Shown piece by piece: positions 29,080 through 36,620 of a DNA stretch of 64,000 nt (position 1 is the first letter of the stretch; each line of letters begins with the position of its first letter). The stretch lies in assembly GCF_030553305.1 (NCBI RefSeq), contig NZ_JARRAH010000001.1:1054001-1118000 (forward strand), in the 5' to 3' direction. Origin of the DNA: Halomarina ordinaria (GTDB lineage: Archaea > Halobacteriota > Halobacteria > Halobacteriales > Haloarculaceae). The notes beneath the pieces are model-generated. The model ran no database searches. It was not told the DNA's origin and saw nothing but the letters and a program-made list of their open reading frames with translations. The position numbers were made by a program, and so were the translations under genes.

Positions 29080-29967
29080 ATGGTTTCGGAACTCTTCGAC
29101 GCGGACCGCTGGGACCCCGTCGACGGCTTCGACTTCGAGGACGTCACGTACCACCGGGCGCGCGAGCAGGGGACGGTGCGGATCGCGTTCGACCGCCCGG
29201 CGGTGCGAAACGCCTTCCGCCCGCGGACGGTCGACGAACTCTACACCGCGCTCGACCACGCCAAGCGCCAGACGGACGTCGGCTGCGTCCTCCTCACCGG
29301 GAACGGTCCCTCACCGAAGGACGGCGGGTGGGCGTTCTCCTCGGGCGGCGACCAGCGCATCCGCGGCGCCGACGGCTACCAGTACGAGGGCGACGAGGAG
29401 GGAGCGGGACCGACGGGTCGCCTCCACATCCTCGAGGTCCAGCGCCTCATCCGGTTCATCCCGAAACCCGTCGTCGCCGTCGTCCCCGGCTGGGCCGTCG
29501 GCGGAGGGCACTCGCTGCACGTCGTCTGCGACCTCACGCTCGCCTCCGCCGACCACGCGAAGTTCCTCCAGACGGACCCCGACGTGGCGAGTTTCGACGC
29601 CGGCTTCGGCAGCGCCTACCTCGCCCGGCAGGTGGGTCAGAAGAAGGCCCGGGAGGTGTTCTTCCTCGGGAAGACCTACTCCGCCGAGGAGGCCGCCGAG
29701 ATGGGGATGGTCAACGAGGCGGTCCCCCACGAGGACCTGGAGGCGGTGGCGCTCGAGTGGGCCGAGGCGATAAACGGGAAGTCCCCCACGGCGATCCGGA
29801 TGCTGAAGTACGCGTTCAACCTCGACTCCGACGGACTGGTCGGCCAGCAGGTGTTCGCCGGCGAGGCGACGCGACTGGGCTACATGACCGACGAGGCCGC
29901 GGAAGGCCGGGACGCGTTCGTCGAGGGACGCGAACCGGACTTCTCTGCGTTCCCCTGGCATTACTGA
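29080..29967 (+). CDS. menB: 1,4-dihydroxy-2-naphthoyl-CoA synthase
   Basis: 295 residues of the crotonase superfamily. MenB-specific features are visible: RPAVRNAFRPRTVDELYTAL, GWAFSSGGDQRIRG, VVPGWAVGGGHSLHVVCDL and the C-terminal YMTDEAAEGRDAFVEGREPDFS. It closes the second ring, turning o-succinylbenzoyl-CoA into 1,4-dihydroxy-2-naphthoyl-CoA. ATG at 29080, preceded by a TATA-like CCTTTTTC about 27 bases upstream. The stop is followed after three bases by a large palindrome (29971-30010). Confidence 0.95.
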   Translation: MVSELFDADRWDPVDGFDFEDVTYHRAREQGTVRIAFDRPAVRNAFRPRTVDELYTALDHAKRQTDVGCVLLTGNGPSPKDGGWAFSSGGDQRIRGADGYQYEGDEEGAGPTGRLHILEVQRLIRFIPKPVVAVVPGWAVGGGHSLHVVCDLTLASADHAKFLQTDPDVASFDAGFGSAYLARQVGQKKAREVFFLGKTYSAEEAAEMGMVNEAVPHEDLEAVALEWAEAINGKSPTAIRMLKYAFNLDSDGLVGQQVFAGEATRLGYMTDEAAEGRDAFVEGREPDFSAFPWHY

Positions 29968-29970
29968 CCA

Positions 29971-30010
29971 CCTTTTGCTGCGCGGGCGGCTTCGCCGCCC
30001 GCTGGCAAAA
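29971..30010 (+). repeat. Composite palindrome after menB
   Basis: Outer arms CTTTTGC (29972-29978) and GCAAAA (30005-30010) enclose an inner perfect stem GCGGGCGGC-TTC-GCCGCCCGC (29982-30002). It starts three bases after the menB stop. A similar element follows another gene at 35005-35063. On RNA it would be a strong hairpin with U-rich and A-rich flanks, suggesting transcript termination or 3'-end protection. Confidence 0.7.
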
Positions 30011-30185
30011 TCTGGACCAAAACCGCGTCTCACCCCCTCGCTACGCTCGAGGGTTCGACGCGTCCGCTCGCTCGTTCACTCGCTCGCGTTACAGCGCATC
30101 GAACGAGACGTGGACTCGACCTCTTCTCACTGCTGATGAACCGACGGTAACCGTTCCCCGTGAGTGGTAGATGACACACGCGAAC

Positions 30186-30195
30186 GTTTAAATAC
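30186..30195 (+). promoter_or_regulatory. Strong TATA-like element far upstream of menA
   Basis: GTTTAAATAC is among the best TATA matches in the window, but it lies about 160 bases before the menA ATG. A short palindrome (30144-30154) precedes it. The element reads almost as well on the other strand, so direction is uncertain. Confidence 0.45.
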
Positions 30196-30351
30196 GGAAA
30201 CGGGACCAGCGTCGCCATCCACTGACTCCGGCCGCGGGGCGGTCAGGGCGGGTGGGCGACGCGCCGTCCCGCGGAGCGCCACGCGTCGCCTGTTCACACC
30301 GGTCGACAGCGGATGCCAAGTTTGACGCTCTCGGCGTCCTGATTCGGGGCA

Positions 30352-31293
30352 ATGAGTACGGAGGTCTCTCGAACGAAGGCGTGGCTGATGGCCGCGCGGC
30401 CACAGACCCTTCCGGCGGGCGCGTCGCCCGTCGTCGTCGGGACCGGGCTGGCGGTCGGGAGCGGCGTGTTCTCCCCGTTGCCGGCGCTCGCCGCCCTCGT
30501 CGGCGCGCTCCTCCTGCAGGTCGGGACGAACTTCGCCAACGACTACTACGACGCCGTCAGGGGCGCCGACACCGACGACCGCGAGGGGTTCACCCGCGTC
30601 ACGCAGTCGGGGCTCATCGCGCCTCACGAGGTCAAGCGCGCGATGTACCTCACCTTCCTCACCGCGATACTGCTCGGCACCTACCTCGTCTACGTCGGGG
30701 GCGTGCCCATCCTCGTCGTCGGGCTGGCGAGCGTCGCGGCGGGCATCGCCTACACGGGCGGCCCCTACCCCTACGGCTACCGGGGGCTCGGCGACGTGTT
30801 CGTCTTCGTCTTCTTCGGCCTCGTCGCCGTCACCGGGACGTACTACGTCCAGGCGGTCGACGTGCTGGCCGACCCGCTCGCGCTCTGGGTACCGGCGGGG
30901 ACGGTCCCGCTCGCGGCCGTCGTCGCCAGCCTCCCGGCAGCGGGGCTCTCGACGTGCATCCTCGTCGTCAACAACATCCGGGACCGCGAGACGGACGCGG
31001 CGGCCGGCAAGCGTACCCTCGCGGTCACCTTCGGGTACGCGTTCAGCCGCGTCGAGTTCCTCGCGCTGCTCGGGATGGCCTACGTCGTCCCCGTCGTCTT
31101 CGCGGCGACGGGCGACGGCCTGCTCACGCTCCTGCCGCTGCTCACCCTTCCGCTCGCCGTCTCGCTGTCGCGGACGGTGCTCACGGAGACGAGCGGCGCG
31201 GCGCTCAATCCCGCACTCGAGACGACCGGAAAGCTCCTCGCGGCCCACTCGGGGCTGTTCGCCGTCGGCCTCGCCGCACCCGCGCTGTTATGA
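30352..31293 (+). CDS. menA: 1,4-dihydroxy-2-naphthoate polyprenyltransferase
   Basis: 313 residues, a UbiA-family integral membrane prenyltransferase with about nine helices. The first Asp-rich motif NFANDYYDAVRGADTDD (near 60) and the second NNIRDRETDAAAGKRTL (near 205) bind prenyl diphosphate through Mg2+. It attaches the isoprenoid chain to dihydroxynaphthoate in the membrane. Its TGA overlaps the ATG of menC (ATGA, 31290-31293). ATG at 30352. Confidence 0.95.
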   Translation: MSTEVSRTKAWLMAARPQTLPAGASPVVVGTGLAVGSGVFSPLPALAALVGALLLQVGTNFANDYYDAVRGADTDDREGFTRVTQSGLIAPHEVKRAMYLTFLTAILLGTYLVYVGGVPILVVGLASVAAGIAYTGGPYPYGYRGLGDVFVFVFFGLVAVTGTYYVQAVDVLADPLALWVPAGTVPLAAVVASLPAAGLSTCILVVNNIRDRETDAAAGKRTLAVTFGYAFSRVEFLALLGMAYVVPVVFAATGDGLLTLLPLLTLPLAVSLSRTVLTETSGAALNPALETTGKLLAAHSGLFAVGLAAPALL

Positions 31294-32327
31294 ACGTCGA
31301 GCCGTACGCGCTGACACTCGCGCACCCGTTGACGACGGCGGCGGGGACCATCGAGGAACGCGAGGGGTTCGTCGTGACCGTCGCCCACCGCGGGGAGCGG
31401 GGCGTCGGCGAGGCGACGCCGCTCCCCGGGTGGACGGAGTCCCGGGACGACTGTGAGGCGGCGCTCCGCACGGCCCGGCGGACCGCCGAGCGTGCGGACG
31501 TCATGACTGCACTCGACGAGCTATCCGAGACGCCCGCCGCGAGACACGCCCTCTCGCTCGCGGTGCTCGACGCCCGGTCGCGAGCGACGGGCGTCCCGCT
31601 CTACCGCCACCTCGGCGGGACGAGTGCCGTGTCGGGAGTGCCCGTCAACGCCACCGTCGGTGACGGGTCGCCCGCGGAGACGGCGACCGAGGCGAACGAC
31701 GCCGTCGGGGACGGCTTCCGGACCCTCAAGGTGAAGGTCGGCGCCCGGTCCGTCGCGGCGGACGTCGACCGCCTCGAAGCGGTTCGCGCTGCCGTGGGCG
31801 GCGAGGTCGACCTCCGCGCGGACGCGAACGCGGCGTGGACGCCCGCGCAGGCGCACGAGGCGTTCGAGGCGTTCGGCGAACTGGGTGTCGAGTACGTCGA
31901 GCAACCGCTGGACGACGACGACCTGTCGGGCCACGCCGCCCTGCGAGGCGGCCCGGTGGGCGTCGCGCTCGACGAGTCGCTCGCGGCGTGCGGTCCCGAG
32001 GCGGTCCTCGCGGCCGCCGCCGCCGACGTCCTCGTCCTGAAGCCGATGGCGCTCGGCGGCCCCGACCGGGCGCGCGTCGTCGCCCGACGGGCGCGGGAGC
32101 GCGGGCTCGACGTGGTCGTGACGACGACCATCGACGCGGTGTACGCTCGCACCGCCGCCGTCCACCTCGCGGCGAGCCTCCCGGCGGTCCCCGCCTGCGG
32201 ATTGGCGACGGCGTCGCTGCTCGCCGAGGACCTCGCGAACGACCCGTGTCGGGTCGGAGACGGCGAGATAACCGTCCCAGAAGGAAAAGGAAATGTACCA
32301 GCGCATTCTGCTTCGACAGGTGCGTGA
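31290..32327 (+). CDS. menC: o-Succinylbenzoate synthase
   Basis: 345 residues of the enolase superfamily: a capping domain (1-110), then a barrel with LKVKVG (Lys base), DLRADANAAW, EQPLDDDD, ALDESLA and VLKPMALGG. It dehydrates SHCHC to o-succinylbenzoate. It overlaps menA by four bases at its start, and its last 35 bases overlap the start of menE, so menA-menC-menE are tightly coupled. The last 15 residues (GKGNVPAHSASTGA) are probably non-essential coding space shared with menE. Confidence 0.92.
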   Translation: MNVEPYALTLAHPLTTAAGTIEEREGFVVTVAHRGERGVGEATPLPGWTESRDDCEAALRTARRTAERADVMTALDELSETPAARHALSLAVLDARSRATGVPLYRHLGGTSAVSGVPVNATVGDGSPAETATEANDAVGDGFRTLKVKVGARSVAADVDRLEAVRAAVGGEVDLRADANAAWTPAQAHEAFEAFGELGVEYVEQPLDDDDLSGHAALRGGPVGVALDESLAACGPEAVLAAAAADVLVLKPMALGGPDRARVVARRARERGLDVVVTTTIDAVYARTAAVHLAASLPAVPACGLATASLLAEDLANDPCRVGDGEITVPEGKGNVPAHSASTGA

Positions 32328-33801
32328 CTGGCTGGGCCACCGTTCGCGCGTGACGCCGGACGCCGCGGCACTCGTCGATACCGCGAGCGGCGCGTCGCTC
32401 ACGTTCGCCGACCTCGACGCCGAAGTCGAGGCGCTGGCCGGGCGACTCGCCGCGGAGGGCGTCTGCGTCGACGACCACGTCGGGATGCTCCTCGACGCCA
32501 GTCCGACGGCCGTCACCGTCGTCCACGCGGCGATGCGCGTCGGCGGCGTGCTCGTCCCGCTCTCGACGCGACTGACGACGGCCGAACTCGAACCGCGTAT
32601 CGAGCGCGCCGACCTCGACGTCCTCGTCTGCGAGGCGGGGACGGAGGCGCGCGCGCTCGACGCCGCCGGTGACGTCCGCGTCGTCTCCGTCGACGCGGAC
32701 GGCGAGGCGGCCGCCATCGGGGCGACCGACCCCCAGCCGTTCGACCTCCCCGAGTGGGACGCCGACGACCCGCTCGCGATGCTCTACACCTCGGGGACGA
32801 CCGGCGCGCCGAAACTGGTCGTCCTCACCGTGATGAACGTGCTGTCGAGCGCGAGCGCCAGCGCCTTCCGGCTCGGAACGCTCCCGGACGACCGCTGGGC
32901 GTCGCCCCTGTCGATGAGTTCGATGGGCGGACTGGCGCCCCTCTACCGGACGACGCTCTACGGGACCGCGCTCGTCCTCTGTCCGACGGACCCCGACGAC
33001 TTGCTCGAAGCACTCGGCGACCAGCGCCCGACCGGGGTCTCGCTCGTCCCGACGCTCCTCGCGCGACTGCTCGAGGAGGGCGACCTCCCCGACTCGCTGC
33101 GGTTCGTCCTGCTCGGGGGCGCACCCGCCCCGGACGACCTCGTTCGGGAGTGCGGCGAGCGCGGCGTCCCGGTCTGTCCGACCTACGGCATGACCGAGAC
33201 GGCCTCGCAGGTCGCCACCGCCCGCCCCGGCGAGGCCCCCGCTCACGTCGGGACCGTCGGCCGGCCGCTGCTGTTCACCGAGGTGACCGTCGTCGACGAC
33301 CACGGCGACCCGCTCCCGCGCGGGCACGGCGGCGAACTCGTCGTCGCCGGCCCGACGGTCACGGCCGGCTACTACGACGACCCGGCGGCCACCGCCGAGG
33401 CGTTCTGTCCGCACGGCCTGCTGACCGGCGACGTCGGCCGCGTCGACGCCGAGGGGCGCCTCTGGGTCGGCGACCGGAAGGCCGACCGCATCATCACCGG
33501 CGGACAGAACGTCGACCCGAACGAGGTCGTCGCCGCCCTCCGGTCGCTCGAGGGCGTCCGCGACGCCGCCGTCGTCGGCCTCCCCGACGAGGAGTGGGGC
33601 GAGCGCGTGGCGGCGCTCGTCGAGACGGAGAACGGTCTCGACGAGTCGAGCGTCGAGGCCCACTGCCGCGAGCGACTCGCGGGGTACAAACTCCCCCGCG
33701 TGGTCGGCTTCGGCCCGCTCCCCCGGACCGAGTCGGGGACCGTCGACCGGGCGGCGGTCCGCGAACGGCTGGAGGCGGTCCGCGCCACCACCGACTCCTG
33801 A
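32293..33801 (+). CDS. menE: o-Succinylbenzoate-CoA ligase
   Basis: 502 residues of the ANL adenylating family. The AMP motif LYTSGTTGAPKLVVLT, the A5 motif PTYGMTETASQVAT, the hinge GDVGRVDAEGRLWVGDRKAD and the catalytic C-terminal Lys region (TESGTVDRAAV, in which the usual Lys after GTV is replaced by Asp-Arg) are seen. It activates o-succinylbenzoate to its CoA ester for MenB. The ATG at 32293 lies inside menC with a purine-rich ribosome site (AAGGAAAAGGAA). A later start is possible, but MYQRILLRQVRDWLGHRS looks native. Confidence 0.88.
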   Translation: MYQRILLRQVRDWLGHRSRVTPDAAALVDTASGASLTFADLDAEVEALAGRLAAEGVCVDDHVGMLLDASPTAVTVVHAAMRVGGVLVPLSTRLTTAELEPRIERADLDVLVCEAGTEARALDAAGDVRVVSVDADGEAAAIGATDPQPFDLPEWDADDPLAMLYTSGTTGAPKLVVLTVMNVLSSASASAFRLGTLPDDRWASPLSMSSMGGLAPLYRTTLYGTALVLCPTDPDDLLEALGDQRPTGVSLVPTLLARLLEEGDLPDSLRFVLLGGAPAPDDLVRECGERGVPVCPTYGMTETASQVATARPGEAPAHVGTVGRPLLFTEVTVVDDHGDPLPRGHGGELVVAGPTVTAGYYDDPAATAEAFCPHGLLTGDVGRVDAEGRLWVGDRKADRIITGGQNVDPNEVVAALRSLEGVRDAAVVGLPDEEWGERVAALVETENGLDESSVEAHCRERLAGYKLPRVVGFGPLPRTESGTVDRAAVRERLEAVRATTDS

Positions 33802-33817
33802 GGCCCACTCGACGTGG

Positions 33818-33825
33818 ACTTATCT
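33818..33825 (+). promoter_or_regulatory. TATA-like element of the NRDE gene
   Basis: ACTTATCT lies about 28 bases before the GTG at 33849, supporting that start and a leaderless transcript. Confidence 0.45.
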
Positions 33826-33848
33826 CGCGCCGTCACCTACTCCCGTTC

Positions 33849-34625
33849 GTGTGTACACTCACCGTGGCCTGGCAGGTCTTCGACTCACACCCGGTGGTCG
33901 TCGCCGCGAACCGCGACGAGCGACTCGACCGGCCCTCCACCGCGCCCGCCGAGTTCCGCGACGGCGAGCATCGCGTCGTCGCCCCGCGCGACGAGGAGGC
34001 CGGCGGGACCTGGCTCGGCTACAACGACGCGGGCGTCGTCGTCGCCGTCACCAACCGGTGGGTGGGTGACCTGGGCGGCGAGCGCTCGCGCGGCCTGCTC
34101 GTCCGCGACGCGCTCCGCGAACCGAGTGCCGACGCCGCCCTCGCCGTCGTCGAGTCGGAACTCGACGCGCGCGACTACGAGGGGTTCAACCTCCTGCTCG
34201 CGGACGCCGCGGACGCACTCCTCGTCGAGTACGACGGCGCGCCGAGCGCCACCCGCCTCGACCCGGGTGTCCACGTCGTCATGAACGTCGGTTACGACAC
34301 GACGTACGTCGTCCCCGACGTCCGGCCGGACCTCGCGCGCCAGCAGGCCGAGAACGGGAAACGCCTGCTCCGGGCGCTCCTCCCCGAGGACGGCGAGCGC
34401 GCGGCCGGGTGGCGCGAGCGCGCGGCCGACGCCCTCGGCGACCACGACTACGGCGTGTGTATCCACCCCCCCGAGGCGGCGGCCGACGGCGAGGGGCCAG
34501 CCGCCGGGTTCGGCACCAAATCCTCGTCGCTGGTCGCTATCGACGCCGACGGGCGGGGGGACTACCGCTTCGCGCCGGGGCCGCCGTGCGTCACCGACTA
34601 CGAACCCGTGGACAGTCAGATTTAA
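33849..34625 (+). CDS. NRDE (TANGO2-like) family protein
   Basis: 258 residues starting at GTG with Cys as residue 2 (MCTLTVAWQVF), followed by VVAANRDERLDRPS, the family name motif, and GGTWLGYNDAGVVVAVTNRW. The fold is of the N-terminal nucleophile type, and Cys2 is the likely nucleophile after methionine removal. Relatives include TANGO2, linked to haem or lipid handling, but the archaeal role is unknown. The TAA at 34623-34625 is part of the TATA box of the next gene. Confidence 0.88.
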   Translation: MCTLTVAWQVFDSHPVVVAANRDERLDRPSTAPAEFRDGEHRVVAPRDEEAGGTWLGYNDAGVVVAVTNRWVGDLGGERSRGLLVRDALREPSADAALAVVESELDARDYEGFNLLLADAADALLVEYDGAPSATRLDPGVHVVMNVGYDTTYVVPDVRPDLARQQAENGKRLLRALLPEDGERAAGWRERAADALGDHDYGVCIHPPEAAADGEGPAAGFGTKSSSLVAIDADGRGDYRFAPGPPCVTDYEPVDSQI

Positions 34626-34627
34626 TC
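34620..34627 (+). promoter_or_regulatory. TATA box of the winged-helix gene, overlapping the NRDE stop
   Basis: ATTTAATC spans the stop codon of the NRDE gene and lies about 28 bases before the ATG at 34651, a compact leaderless promoter embedded in an upstream stop. Confidence 0.55.
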
Positions 34628-34650
34628 GCCCCTCTCCCCCTCTAGGTCGT

Positions 34651-34998
34651 ATGAGCGCCACAGCATCCGAGGAGGACCTGACCGACGACGAGTTGGCGGG
34701 TCTCGAACTCGTGCGCGAGAGCGGGGGCATCCACCAGAGCGAGTTCTGGAAGGCCCTCGACGTCTCCTCGCGCAAGGGGAGTCGCATCGTCGAGTCGCTG
34801 GTCGAGAAGGAACTCATCGACCGCGAGGACACGGTCTACGAGGGGCACAACACGTACTACCTGACGCCGACGGCCGCCGACCTCGACTTCTCGCTGCTGA
34901 TGGCCGGCGACATGCTCTCGCCGTTCGTCGCCGACGACGAACTCGACACGAGCAGCGACGCCTTCTCGCAGTGGATCATGCGGCTGGCGTACCAGTAG
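34651..34998 (+). CDS. Winged-helix transcriptional regulator (MarR/Lrp-like)
   Basis: 115 residues: an acidic N-terminus, then a winged helix (GGIHQSEFWKALDVSSRKGS as helices 2-3, VESLVEKELIDREDTVYEGH as helix and wing) and a C-terminal helical region (FSLLMAGDMLSPFVADDEL). No ligand domain is present. It is leaderless, with its own promoter in the end of the NRDE gene. It is followed six bases after the stop by a composite palindrome similar to that after menB. Confidence 0.8.
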   Translation: MSATASEEDLTDDELAGLELVRESGGIHQSEFWKALDVSSRKGSRIVESLVEKELIDREDTVYEGHNTYYLTPTAADLDFSLLMAGDMLSPFVADDELDTSSDAFSQWIMRLAYQ

Positions 34999-35004
34999 TC
35001 GGAC

Positions 35005-35063
35005 CTTTTTACGCCTCGGGTGCGCTTCGCGCACCGCTCGGCGCAGAAAGCTACGGTAAAAAG
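35005..35063 (+). repeat. Composite palindrome after the winged-helix gene
   Basis: Outer arms CTTTTTAC (35005-35012) and GTAAAAAG (35056-35063) are perfectly complementary. Within them lies the perfect inner stem GGTGCGC-TTC-GCGCACC (35019-35035). The element begins six bases after a stop codon, as does the one after menB, and shares its plan: a T-rich arm, a GC stem with a TTC loop, and an A-rich arm. The following 70 bases are rich in further GCGG/CCGC self-complementary words. Confidence 0.75.
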
Positions 35064-35204
35064 AGCCGCGAACAACGCGGCGCGTTGCTCGCGGTGGACC
35101 GCGTCGCGAAGCGGCGCGGACCCTGGATACCGTTCGTTAGGTTCGGTGGAGAGCGCCGGGAGCGTTCCGGGGGTCCGTCGAGCGGCGGGGACGTGCGGCA
35201 GGAG

Positions 35205-36620
35205 TCAGATACCCCGTGGCCCGGTTATCGTCGGCATCGCGGCGACGTTACCGGACCCGACCGCCCGCCCGACGGTCGCCCACAGACGGTCGACGGTCCG
35301 GGTGAGCGGCGACTCCGTCGGTTGCGACTCGGCCGCGGCGCGCTGGTAGTCCACGTAGCGGACGTTCACCGTCACGGGGTGGCCCACGTCGTCGCTGATG
35401 CGCTCGCGTAACTGTTCGGCCAGGACCGGGTACTCGCTGTCGGCGGTCCGTCCCACCGTCACCGTCACCGTCTCGACGCTGCCGAACGCCTCCATGTCGT
35501 TGTAGTCGGTCTGGACGCCGACGAGGTCGAGGCCCTCGTAGGTGTCGTCGGACAGCACCGCCTCGACGTCGCGGTCGACGGTCTGCTCGTAGGCGATGTG
35601 CTGGTAGGTCGCGAACGAGGTGAGCACGAGCATGACGGCGAACGCGAGGACGACGACGGCGTAGGCGCCCGTCCGGACCGAGACGGAGACGTTCTCCCGG
35701 ACGCTCCCGACGACCGACGACCGGTAGCCGAGCGAGACGAGGCCGACGTACGCCGCGACGTTGATGAAGATGATGTTCATCAGGAGCAGGACGACCGCCC
35801 CGAGGGCGACCAGCGGGTCGCCCCAGACGACGCCGATGCCGGCGGTGGCGGCGGCGGGGACGATGGCCGCCGCGACGGCCACCCCCGCGATGGAGACGGG
35901 GAGGTCGGTCGCCAGCGCGAGCGCCCCGGCGAACCCGGCGGCGACGGCGATGACGAGCGTCAACATCCCCGGCGTGAGGAACGAACTCACCTGGTCTATC
36001 TGAGAGACGGCCGTCGAACTCGGGACGAAGTACGCCCACTGCAGCGCCAGGCTCATCAGTATCGCGGCGAGGAACGCGACGACGAGGCCGAGCGCCTGCG
36101 AGAGGACGCTCTCGACGACCATCTCCCGGTCGCTGATGACCGCGCCGACGCTCGCCGAGAGCGTCGACCCCGCGAACGGCGCGATGACCATCGCGCCGAC
36201 GATGACGATGGCCGTATCCAGCAGGAGGCCCGCGACGGCGACGACGGCACTCAGCGCGGCGAACGCGATGTACGTCCGGCGCCCCGGCGTCAGGTCGTCC
36301 GCGCGCTCGCGGAGTTCGGGGTGCGAGACGCCCGCCTCCCCCTTCGGCCCCTCGACGTAGCGGTCGGCCACGGCGTCGGCGTTCGGGACGACCGCCCGGT
36401 CGACGTCCGTGACGACGGTGTAGGTGTCCTCGTCGAGGCCGGCGTCGTAGAGCCGGTCGAGTATCGCGTCTACCGCCCCCGCCGGGACGGGTACGTGAGC
36501 GATGACGCCGTCGCGCCCGCTCAGTTCGTCGCCGAGGAGGTAGTCGACGCCCGCGTCGTCGAGCGTCCGCTCGACCTCGGTTCGGACGTCGTTGGGGACG
36601 AAGACCTGGATGAGCCGCAT
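35205..36620 (-). CDS. DUF389/TIGR00341 membrane protein
   Basis: 471 residues. A cytoplasmic N-terminal ACT-like domain (MRLIQVFVPNDVRTEVERTL; 1-90) is followed by the DUF389 membrane core of about eight helices (AIVIVGAMVIAPFAGSTLSA, SDREMVVESVLSQ, AAIVPAAATAGIGVVWGD) and a soluble C-terminal domain (about 360-440, VTVTVGRTADSEYPVLAEQL). The family is of unknown function, possibly a channel or transporter. The stop is at 35205, facing the winged-helix gene and its palindrome. ATG at 36620. Confidence 0.9.
   Translation of the reverse strand: MRLIQVFVPNDVRTEVERTLDDAGVDYLLGDELSGRDGVIAHVPVPAGAVDAILDRLYDAGLDEDTYTVVTDVDRAVVPNADAVADRYVEGPKGEAGVSHPELRERADDLTPGRRTYIAFAALSAVVAVAGLLLDTAIVIVGAMVIAPFAGSTLSASVGAVISDREMVVESVLSQALGLVVAFLAAILMSLALQWAYFVPSSTAVSQIDQVSSFLTPGMLTLVIAVAAGFAGALALATDLPVSIAGVAVAAAIVPAAATAGIGVVWGDPLVALGAVVLLLMNIIFINVAAYVGLVSLGYRSSVVGSVRENVSVSVRTGAYAVVVLAFAVMLVLTSFATYQHIAYEQTVDRDVEAVLSDDTYEGLDLVGVQTDYNDMEAFGSVETVTVTVGRTADSEYPVLAEQLRERISDDVGHPVTVNVRYVDYQRAAAESQPTESPLTRTVDRLWATVGRAVGSGNVAAMPTITGPRGI

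Follow-up and report, generated by a model that had tools for sequence, protein, structure and literature searches.

The window, i.e. the whole 64,000-nucleotide stretch of DNA analysed (C1:1054001-1118000 of a 3.61-Mb haloarchaeal genome), carries two composite palindromes in intergenic DNA closely behind stop codons. The first lies between an enoyl-CoA hydratase-like gene and a UbiA-type gene, both on the plus strand, and the second between a MarR-like gene on the plus strand and a DUF389 gene on the minus strand, which converges on it. Direct reading of the sequence recovers both palindromes where they were first described in an initial annotation made from the letters alone. Their parts and immediate neighbors are as follows:

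29080-29967, plus strand: enoyl-CoA hydratase-like gene as called, with its TGA stop at 29965-29967
29968-30022, plus strand: core of the first element (55.3 bits; this copy was part of the training set)
29968-29972, plus strand: left arm CCACC
29973-29976, plus strand: T-run
29982-30002, no strand assigned: inner hairpin, with stem halves GCGGGCGGC (29982-29990) and GCCGCCCGC (29994-30002) around TTC
30007-30010, plus strand: A-run
30012-30018, plus strand: CTGGACC box
30019-30022, plus strand: second A-run, ending the tail CTGGACCAAAA (30012-30022)
30024-30062, plus strand: second hairpin, CGCGTC..CCCTCG..CGAGGG..GACGCG
34651-34998, plus strand: MarR-like gene, with its TAG stop at 34996-34998
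35003-35062, plus strand: core of the second element
35003-35005, plus strand: left arm ACC
35006-35010, plus strand: T-run
35019-35035: inner hairpin, GGTGCGC (35019-35025), TTC, GCGCACC (35029-35035)
35045-35049, plus strand: degenerate A-run AGAAA
35050-35056, plus strand: variant box GCTACGG
35058-35062, plus strand: second A-run
35066-35094, plus strand: second hairpin CCGCGAACAACGC..GCGTTGCTCGCGG, its pairing read from the sequence
35205-36620, minus strand: DUF389 gene

The bounds originally drawn needed revision: the palindromes stand, but the frame of the first element starts at CCACC (29968), directly after the stop of the preceding gene, and continues through the tail and the second hairpin. 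Likewise, the second element does possess an A-rich arm, but as AGAAA, the A-run that had been paired in its place (35058-35062) being the second A-run of the tail. A pattern search turned up more copies of the same design in the source genome, among them an identical second copy of the inner palindrome of the first element at C1:2465195, and BLAST aligns the two unlinked loci (C1:2465181 for the second) at 84.9% over 126 nt, the likeness extending through the tail ATCTGGACCAAAA and the second hairpin. The second element is similarly related to a copy at C1:492820 (77% identity over 134 nt). The conserved CTGGAC tail, a constant mismatch near the stem base and a second hairpin common to dispersed copies in this genome all go beyond the initial account, as do a class of copies in front of promoters and, in relatives, duplicated gene 3' ends.

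A covariance model built from 60 copies, with the first element included and the second excluded, recovered the latter out of sample (35003-35052, 28.5 bits, E=3.6e-6); both belong to one large family, and the proposal of a common plan for the two elements holds. The same search identified 1,298 copies in 102 of 116 Halobacteria genomes and 44 of 46 genera, bearing out the idea of a family with many copies across the haloarchaea, and the 23 model copies in the source genome dispose of the concern that no further ones might exist there. Named genomes with copies include those of Haloferax, Haloarcula, Halococcus, Natrinema, Haladaptatus, Halarchaeum, Halorhabdus and Halomarina. Copy number ranges from 0 to 75 per genome: Halococcus thailandensis (G235, L160) and Halomarina halobia (G238, L233) have 52 and 75 copies, while 14 of the 116 genomes, several of them in one genus (g26), have none above threshold. 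Of 57 genomes in the family, 28 contain a simple tail pattern, AAAAN{0,2}CTGGACSAAAA, as do 108 of 194 in the class, with one match per search in the reversed control; the exact tail AAAAGCTTCACCAAAA occurs in only 1 of the 57 and was discarded as a family marker. Matches in viral contigs and in AT-rich bacterial contigs are probably due to chance. Searches of the window and four loci against Rfam gave no family above the gathering threshold, and no earlier description was found in open-licence PMC papers, though a prior account elsewhere is possible.

Members of the family share a characteristic order of parts: the stop codon is followed by CCAcC, TTTT or TTTTT, a GC hairpin of free sequence, AAAA or AAAAA, and a tail consisting of G, T or C, then CTGGACC or CTGGACG, then AAAA and often a second hairpin. 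The inner part falls into a few types, TTTTTcttcgTCGGGT..ACCaCTCctcgAAAAA, TTTTrCTGC..CTGGYAAAA and TTTTATCCACGA..CAGGGTAAAA, each with a GC stem of free sequence. At the stem base CCA pairs with TGG, with an unpaired C alongside. The base pair adjoining the T-run swaps, such that CCACG accompanies AAAACCTGG, and in some copies of the source genome the foot base pairs covary (GTACC with GCTAC, CGACC with GATCG). The T-run, commonly seen as TTTTTC, and the A-run are invariant in 60 of 60 aligned copies, whereas the invariance of the CTGGAC box in the alignment is partly by construction, the box having belonged to the search pattern; model matches are not bound to it. T-runs point both ways and, on either strand, come before the hairpin. 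Within the 2.06 Mb of chromosome read, TTTT..AAAA pairs enclosing a perfect stem of at least 6 bp number 18 against 3 for AAAA..TTTT, with a few loci counted twice through overlapping tracts. An inner stem of at least 6 bp is present in 82% of 118 family copies as opposed to 16% after dinucleotide shuffling, and the median RNA folding z of these copies is -4.2. RNAalifold reports two-sided changes in 5 of 12 pairs, an understatement of the pairing since the alignment misplaces stems of unequal length. Some copies (L003 at C1:1413455, L463, L468) have extra hairpins within the tail, either between the A-run and GGACC or 3' of GGACC, with the outer frame kept. At L106 (near C1:2711753 + 180) a long (TA)n tract comes after the element, shortly before the next gene.

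Orthologous sites show that the inner sequences differ and mostly still pair, as the initial annotation had noted for its two examples. Downstream of the enoyl-CoA hydratase gene the element is present in 4 of 8 congeneric genomes and absent from the other 4; of the four copies, two form good folds from entirely different stems, while that at L465 folds weakly and that at L468 is degraded. In another genus, 6 of 7 genomes have an element 3' of NuoI with differing stems, most keeping the hairpin plan and one (L459) altered. At a third site, GGTGGGTTCGC/GCGAACCCACC in two genomes corresponds to AGAGGGTCGCC/GGCGACCCTCT in a third.

With respect to genes, three classes of copies can be distinguished, genes having been called with a simple codon-usage caller, such that some distances may be off. 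Over the 2.06 Mb of source chromosome in which position was assessed (57% of the genome), all 21 model matches lie between genes, and the start of 17 of them falls at -3 to +14 nt relative to a sense stop, where placement alone would put 2.8% (p=3e-23); this supports the stop-adjacent position first reported. Among forward copies in relatives the distance from the stop to the element is 0-19 nt, and it stays within 8 nt in 39 of 44. Copies of the second class are directed toward the 3' end of an opposite-strand gene. Those of the third precede a gene that reads away from them, at ~28-62 nt from its start codon; four of these represent one gene in four congeners (L401, L407, L412, L433), with the element ~50 nt upstream, facing away and near the expected core promoter. 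Many of the 38 of 136 copies that fall outside the first two classes, all without repeats, belong to the third, and the others are unassigned.

The second class is marked by a further peculiarity: across the element from the reverse gene, the final bases of that gene occur a second time, this copy stopping 0-15 nt short of CCACC. Such a repeat accompanies 34 of 43 copies facing a reverse-gene end as against none of 44 behind forward stops (p=3e-16, a value that is too small as related sequences were counted separately). Overall, 45 cases were found, with a median length of 49 nt and a range of 21-196 nt; between flanks of different loci, an alignment of comparable strength was obtained in 1 of 220 comparisons. 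Junctions within the gene are CCA-rich (21 of 45, with 7.5 expected), about five of them being tandem copies in which the match is built in. At some loci (L112, L113, L423, L217) gene end and element form tandem arrays, and at L217 (5126-5420) and L456 (1164-1439) tandem neighbors with different tails (CTGGACC, CGTGGGCG) and different stems stand between near-identical gene-end copies. Plain tandem duplication as the sole origin was rejected, as a second adjacent element occurs at only ~11 of ~45 loci and near-identical repeats can accompany a single element (e.g. L178).

The NuoI site offers a comparison of alternative states: G036 has the element with a repeat of ~130 nt, while G001 has a single copy of that stretch without an intact element. 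The difference may reflect insertion in G036 or recombinational loss in G001; with the element present in 6 of 7 genomes, the latter is here no less likely than the former. The source genome apparently has one gene-end repeat, at C1:2475640 3' of a thiolase gene, which was seen by eye, as were its counterparts in G011 (L404) and Haloferax profundi (L154). Element and repeats recur in different genera at the same core-metabolism genes, namely an argF-like gene, citrate synthase, NuoI and thiolase (L125, L159, L184; L217, L228; L428, L442, L454-L460; L154, L404, C1:2475640), sometimes with an identical breakpoint; such sites may be hot spots or the traces of old events.

The element is probably mobile, as its dispersal, its presence or absence from species to species and the flanking repeats suggest. 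One tentative possibility, which we consider clearly less probable than not, is that a class-wide archaeal mobile palindrome places terminators at gene ends and, when it enters facing a gene on the reverse strand, copies the final 20-200 nt of that gene such that its end stays intact, by a route matching neither transposition with a fixed target duplication, HUH transposition nor reverse transcription. With regard to these routes, the reverse transcriptase domain PF00078 occurs in just 1 of 116 genomes, and insertion as a target-primed retroelement is rejected. PF01797 (Y1, HUH) is found in 80 of the 116, with copy number not associated (median 7.5 with and 10 without, p=0.16), arguing against IS200/RAYT-type mobilisation; no Y1 transposase was found in the source genome or in G036, each with 23 copies. 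MITEs are likewise set aside: terminal inverted repeats and a short target duplication of fixed length are lacking, the flanking repeats being 21-196 nt, variable and confined to one orientation.

The element can be placed against several known systems. Bacterial REP/BIME palindromes are also short, multicopy, extragenic and often located behind stops, but REPs are 20-40 bp, carry GTAG or CGTC tags and are served by RAYT transposases in many genomes (PMC2817692, PMC3733652); the present element is longer, has T- and A-runs, shows no link to a Y1 transposase and has a consensus without a GTAG or CGTC tag beside a 20-40 bp palindrome. The small mobile repeats (SMRs) and PATEs of Haloquadratum walsbyi resemble it in being haloarchaeal, ~50-110 bp long, non-coding and of enigmatic mobilisation, but SMRs have inverted ends, no target duplication and locations within other mobile elements, and PATEs have IS605-type ends (PMC3119063), whereas the element sits behind stops with long gene-end repeats; the separation is drawn from their published descriptions. 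Bacterial intrinsic terminators share the GC hairpin and the T-run near a stop but have the opposite order: here the T-run precedes the hairpin on both strands, in keeping with the excess of T-stem-A over A-stem-T arrangements. The integron attC site, too, is an imperfect palindrome behind a stop, in which the arms are conserved, some bases are unpaired and the tip varies. The resemblance is one of plan only: no cassette organisation was seen, and the AAC..GTT core boxes are absent from the alignment, where the stem base is CCA..TGG. Extragenic palindromic repeats and T-run terminators are known kinds; the family, its order of parts and the gene-end duplications match none of the known systems tested.

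The two-way T-runs in every aligned copy, at the ends or shield points of transcription units, lead us to infer that the two palindromes represent a single extragenic element, dispersed throughout the haloarchaeal class and serving as a two-way transcription terminator or insulator at transcription-unit borders, with a probability of roughly 0.5. A precedent is presented by Haloferax, where T-stretches terminate ~95% of transcripts in a reporter (PMC7237163). The run of ~4-5 T behind a gene end that typifies archaeal terminators is present in all 60 aligned copies and at the sense stop in 17 of 21 copies of the source genome. A polymerase leaving the gene would meet the T-run a few bases 3' of the stop and terminate there, while one arriving from the opposite side, as DUF389 transcripts would at the second element, would meet a double T-run (TTTTTGGTCCAGCTTTTT). 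Enclosed by the opposed T-runs, the GC-rich palindrome might slow the polymerase, or fold or be bound, as a backstop to read-through, and such a role would explain why pairing is kept while the sequence drifts fast. Copies in front of start codons occupy a place where an insulator would be useful. The element is predicted to spread by a duplicative route, accompanied in one orientation by a copy of the adjoining gene's end.

The backstop is the weakest step in this scheme: from either direction the T-run is reached before the hairpin, which therefore cannot act like a bacterial terminator hairpin, and known T-run termination needs no hairpin there. The CTGGAC box and the constant mismatch are left without explanation, and degradation or weak folding affects 2 of the 4 copies behind the enoyl-CoA hydratase gene. 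The T5C terminators of Haloferax volcanii likewise have a T-run soon after the stop in intergenic DNA, but are bare T-runs, some with an upstream hairpin, in contrast to a palindrome within two opposed T-runs followed by a CTGGAC box (PMC7237163). Nor is the validated Haloferax ftsZ2 T5C terminator a member of the family, there being no element at that place in four Haloferax genomes.

The principal competing view, to which we give about one chance in four, holds that the element is mainly a selfish REP- or MITE-like mobile palindrome which settles behind stops because insertion is least harmful there, any terminator effect being incidental or later co-opted. It accommodates the near-identical copies at unlinked loci (the first element and C1:2465181), presence and absence between congeners, the tandem arrays, the gene-end repeats and the wide range in copy number. 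Against it, the very tight stop-codon spacing and the T-runs, present throughout the alignment, look selected, and inverted ends, a fixed target duplication and a linked transposase are all wanting. The initial annotation had offered terminators, RNA 3'-end protectors and targets for a nucleoid protein, of which terminators fare best, the other two gaining no specific support. An RNA element, with transcripts passing the T-run and the hairpin marking or protecting the mature 3' end or forming a cleavage site for an endonuclease such as aCPSF1, seems improbable: the inner bulges and tail show strand polarity, the median RNA folding z is -4.2 and many Haloferax 3' ends are reported to have hairpins nearby (PMC7237163), but the element also stands behind stops in the reverse direction, where the RNA would be its complement, and the first T-run, at 5-13 nt from the stop, would, given an activity like that of other Haloferax T-runs, terminate most transcripts ahead of the hairpin. 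Still less probable is binding of a chromosome protein to the element as DNA, in cruciform or hairpin form, with the CTGGAC box and the mismatch as putative contacts; the constancy of both beside a free stem (that of the box being partly by construction) and the almost empty reversed-pattern controls fit it, but by itself it does not predict two-way T-runs directly behind stops. Chance palindromes, many short ones of which arise in GC-rich intergenic DNA, are ruled out by the copy number across 102 of 116 genomes, the out-of-sample match to the second element, the shuffles and the asymmetry in tract order.

Archaeal terminators have been thought of as bare T-runs, and a repeated two-sided gene-end module in nearly all Halobacteria genera tested, as envisaged in the terminator or insulator reading, would serve tests of termination and insulation. 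The gene-end duplications, in turn, suggest that DNA across the whole class moves or is repaired by a route not yet accounted for.
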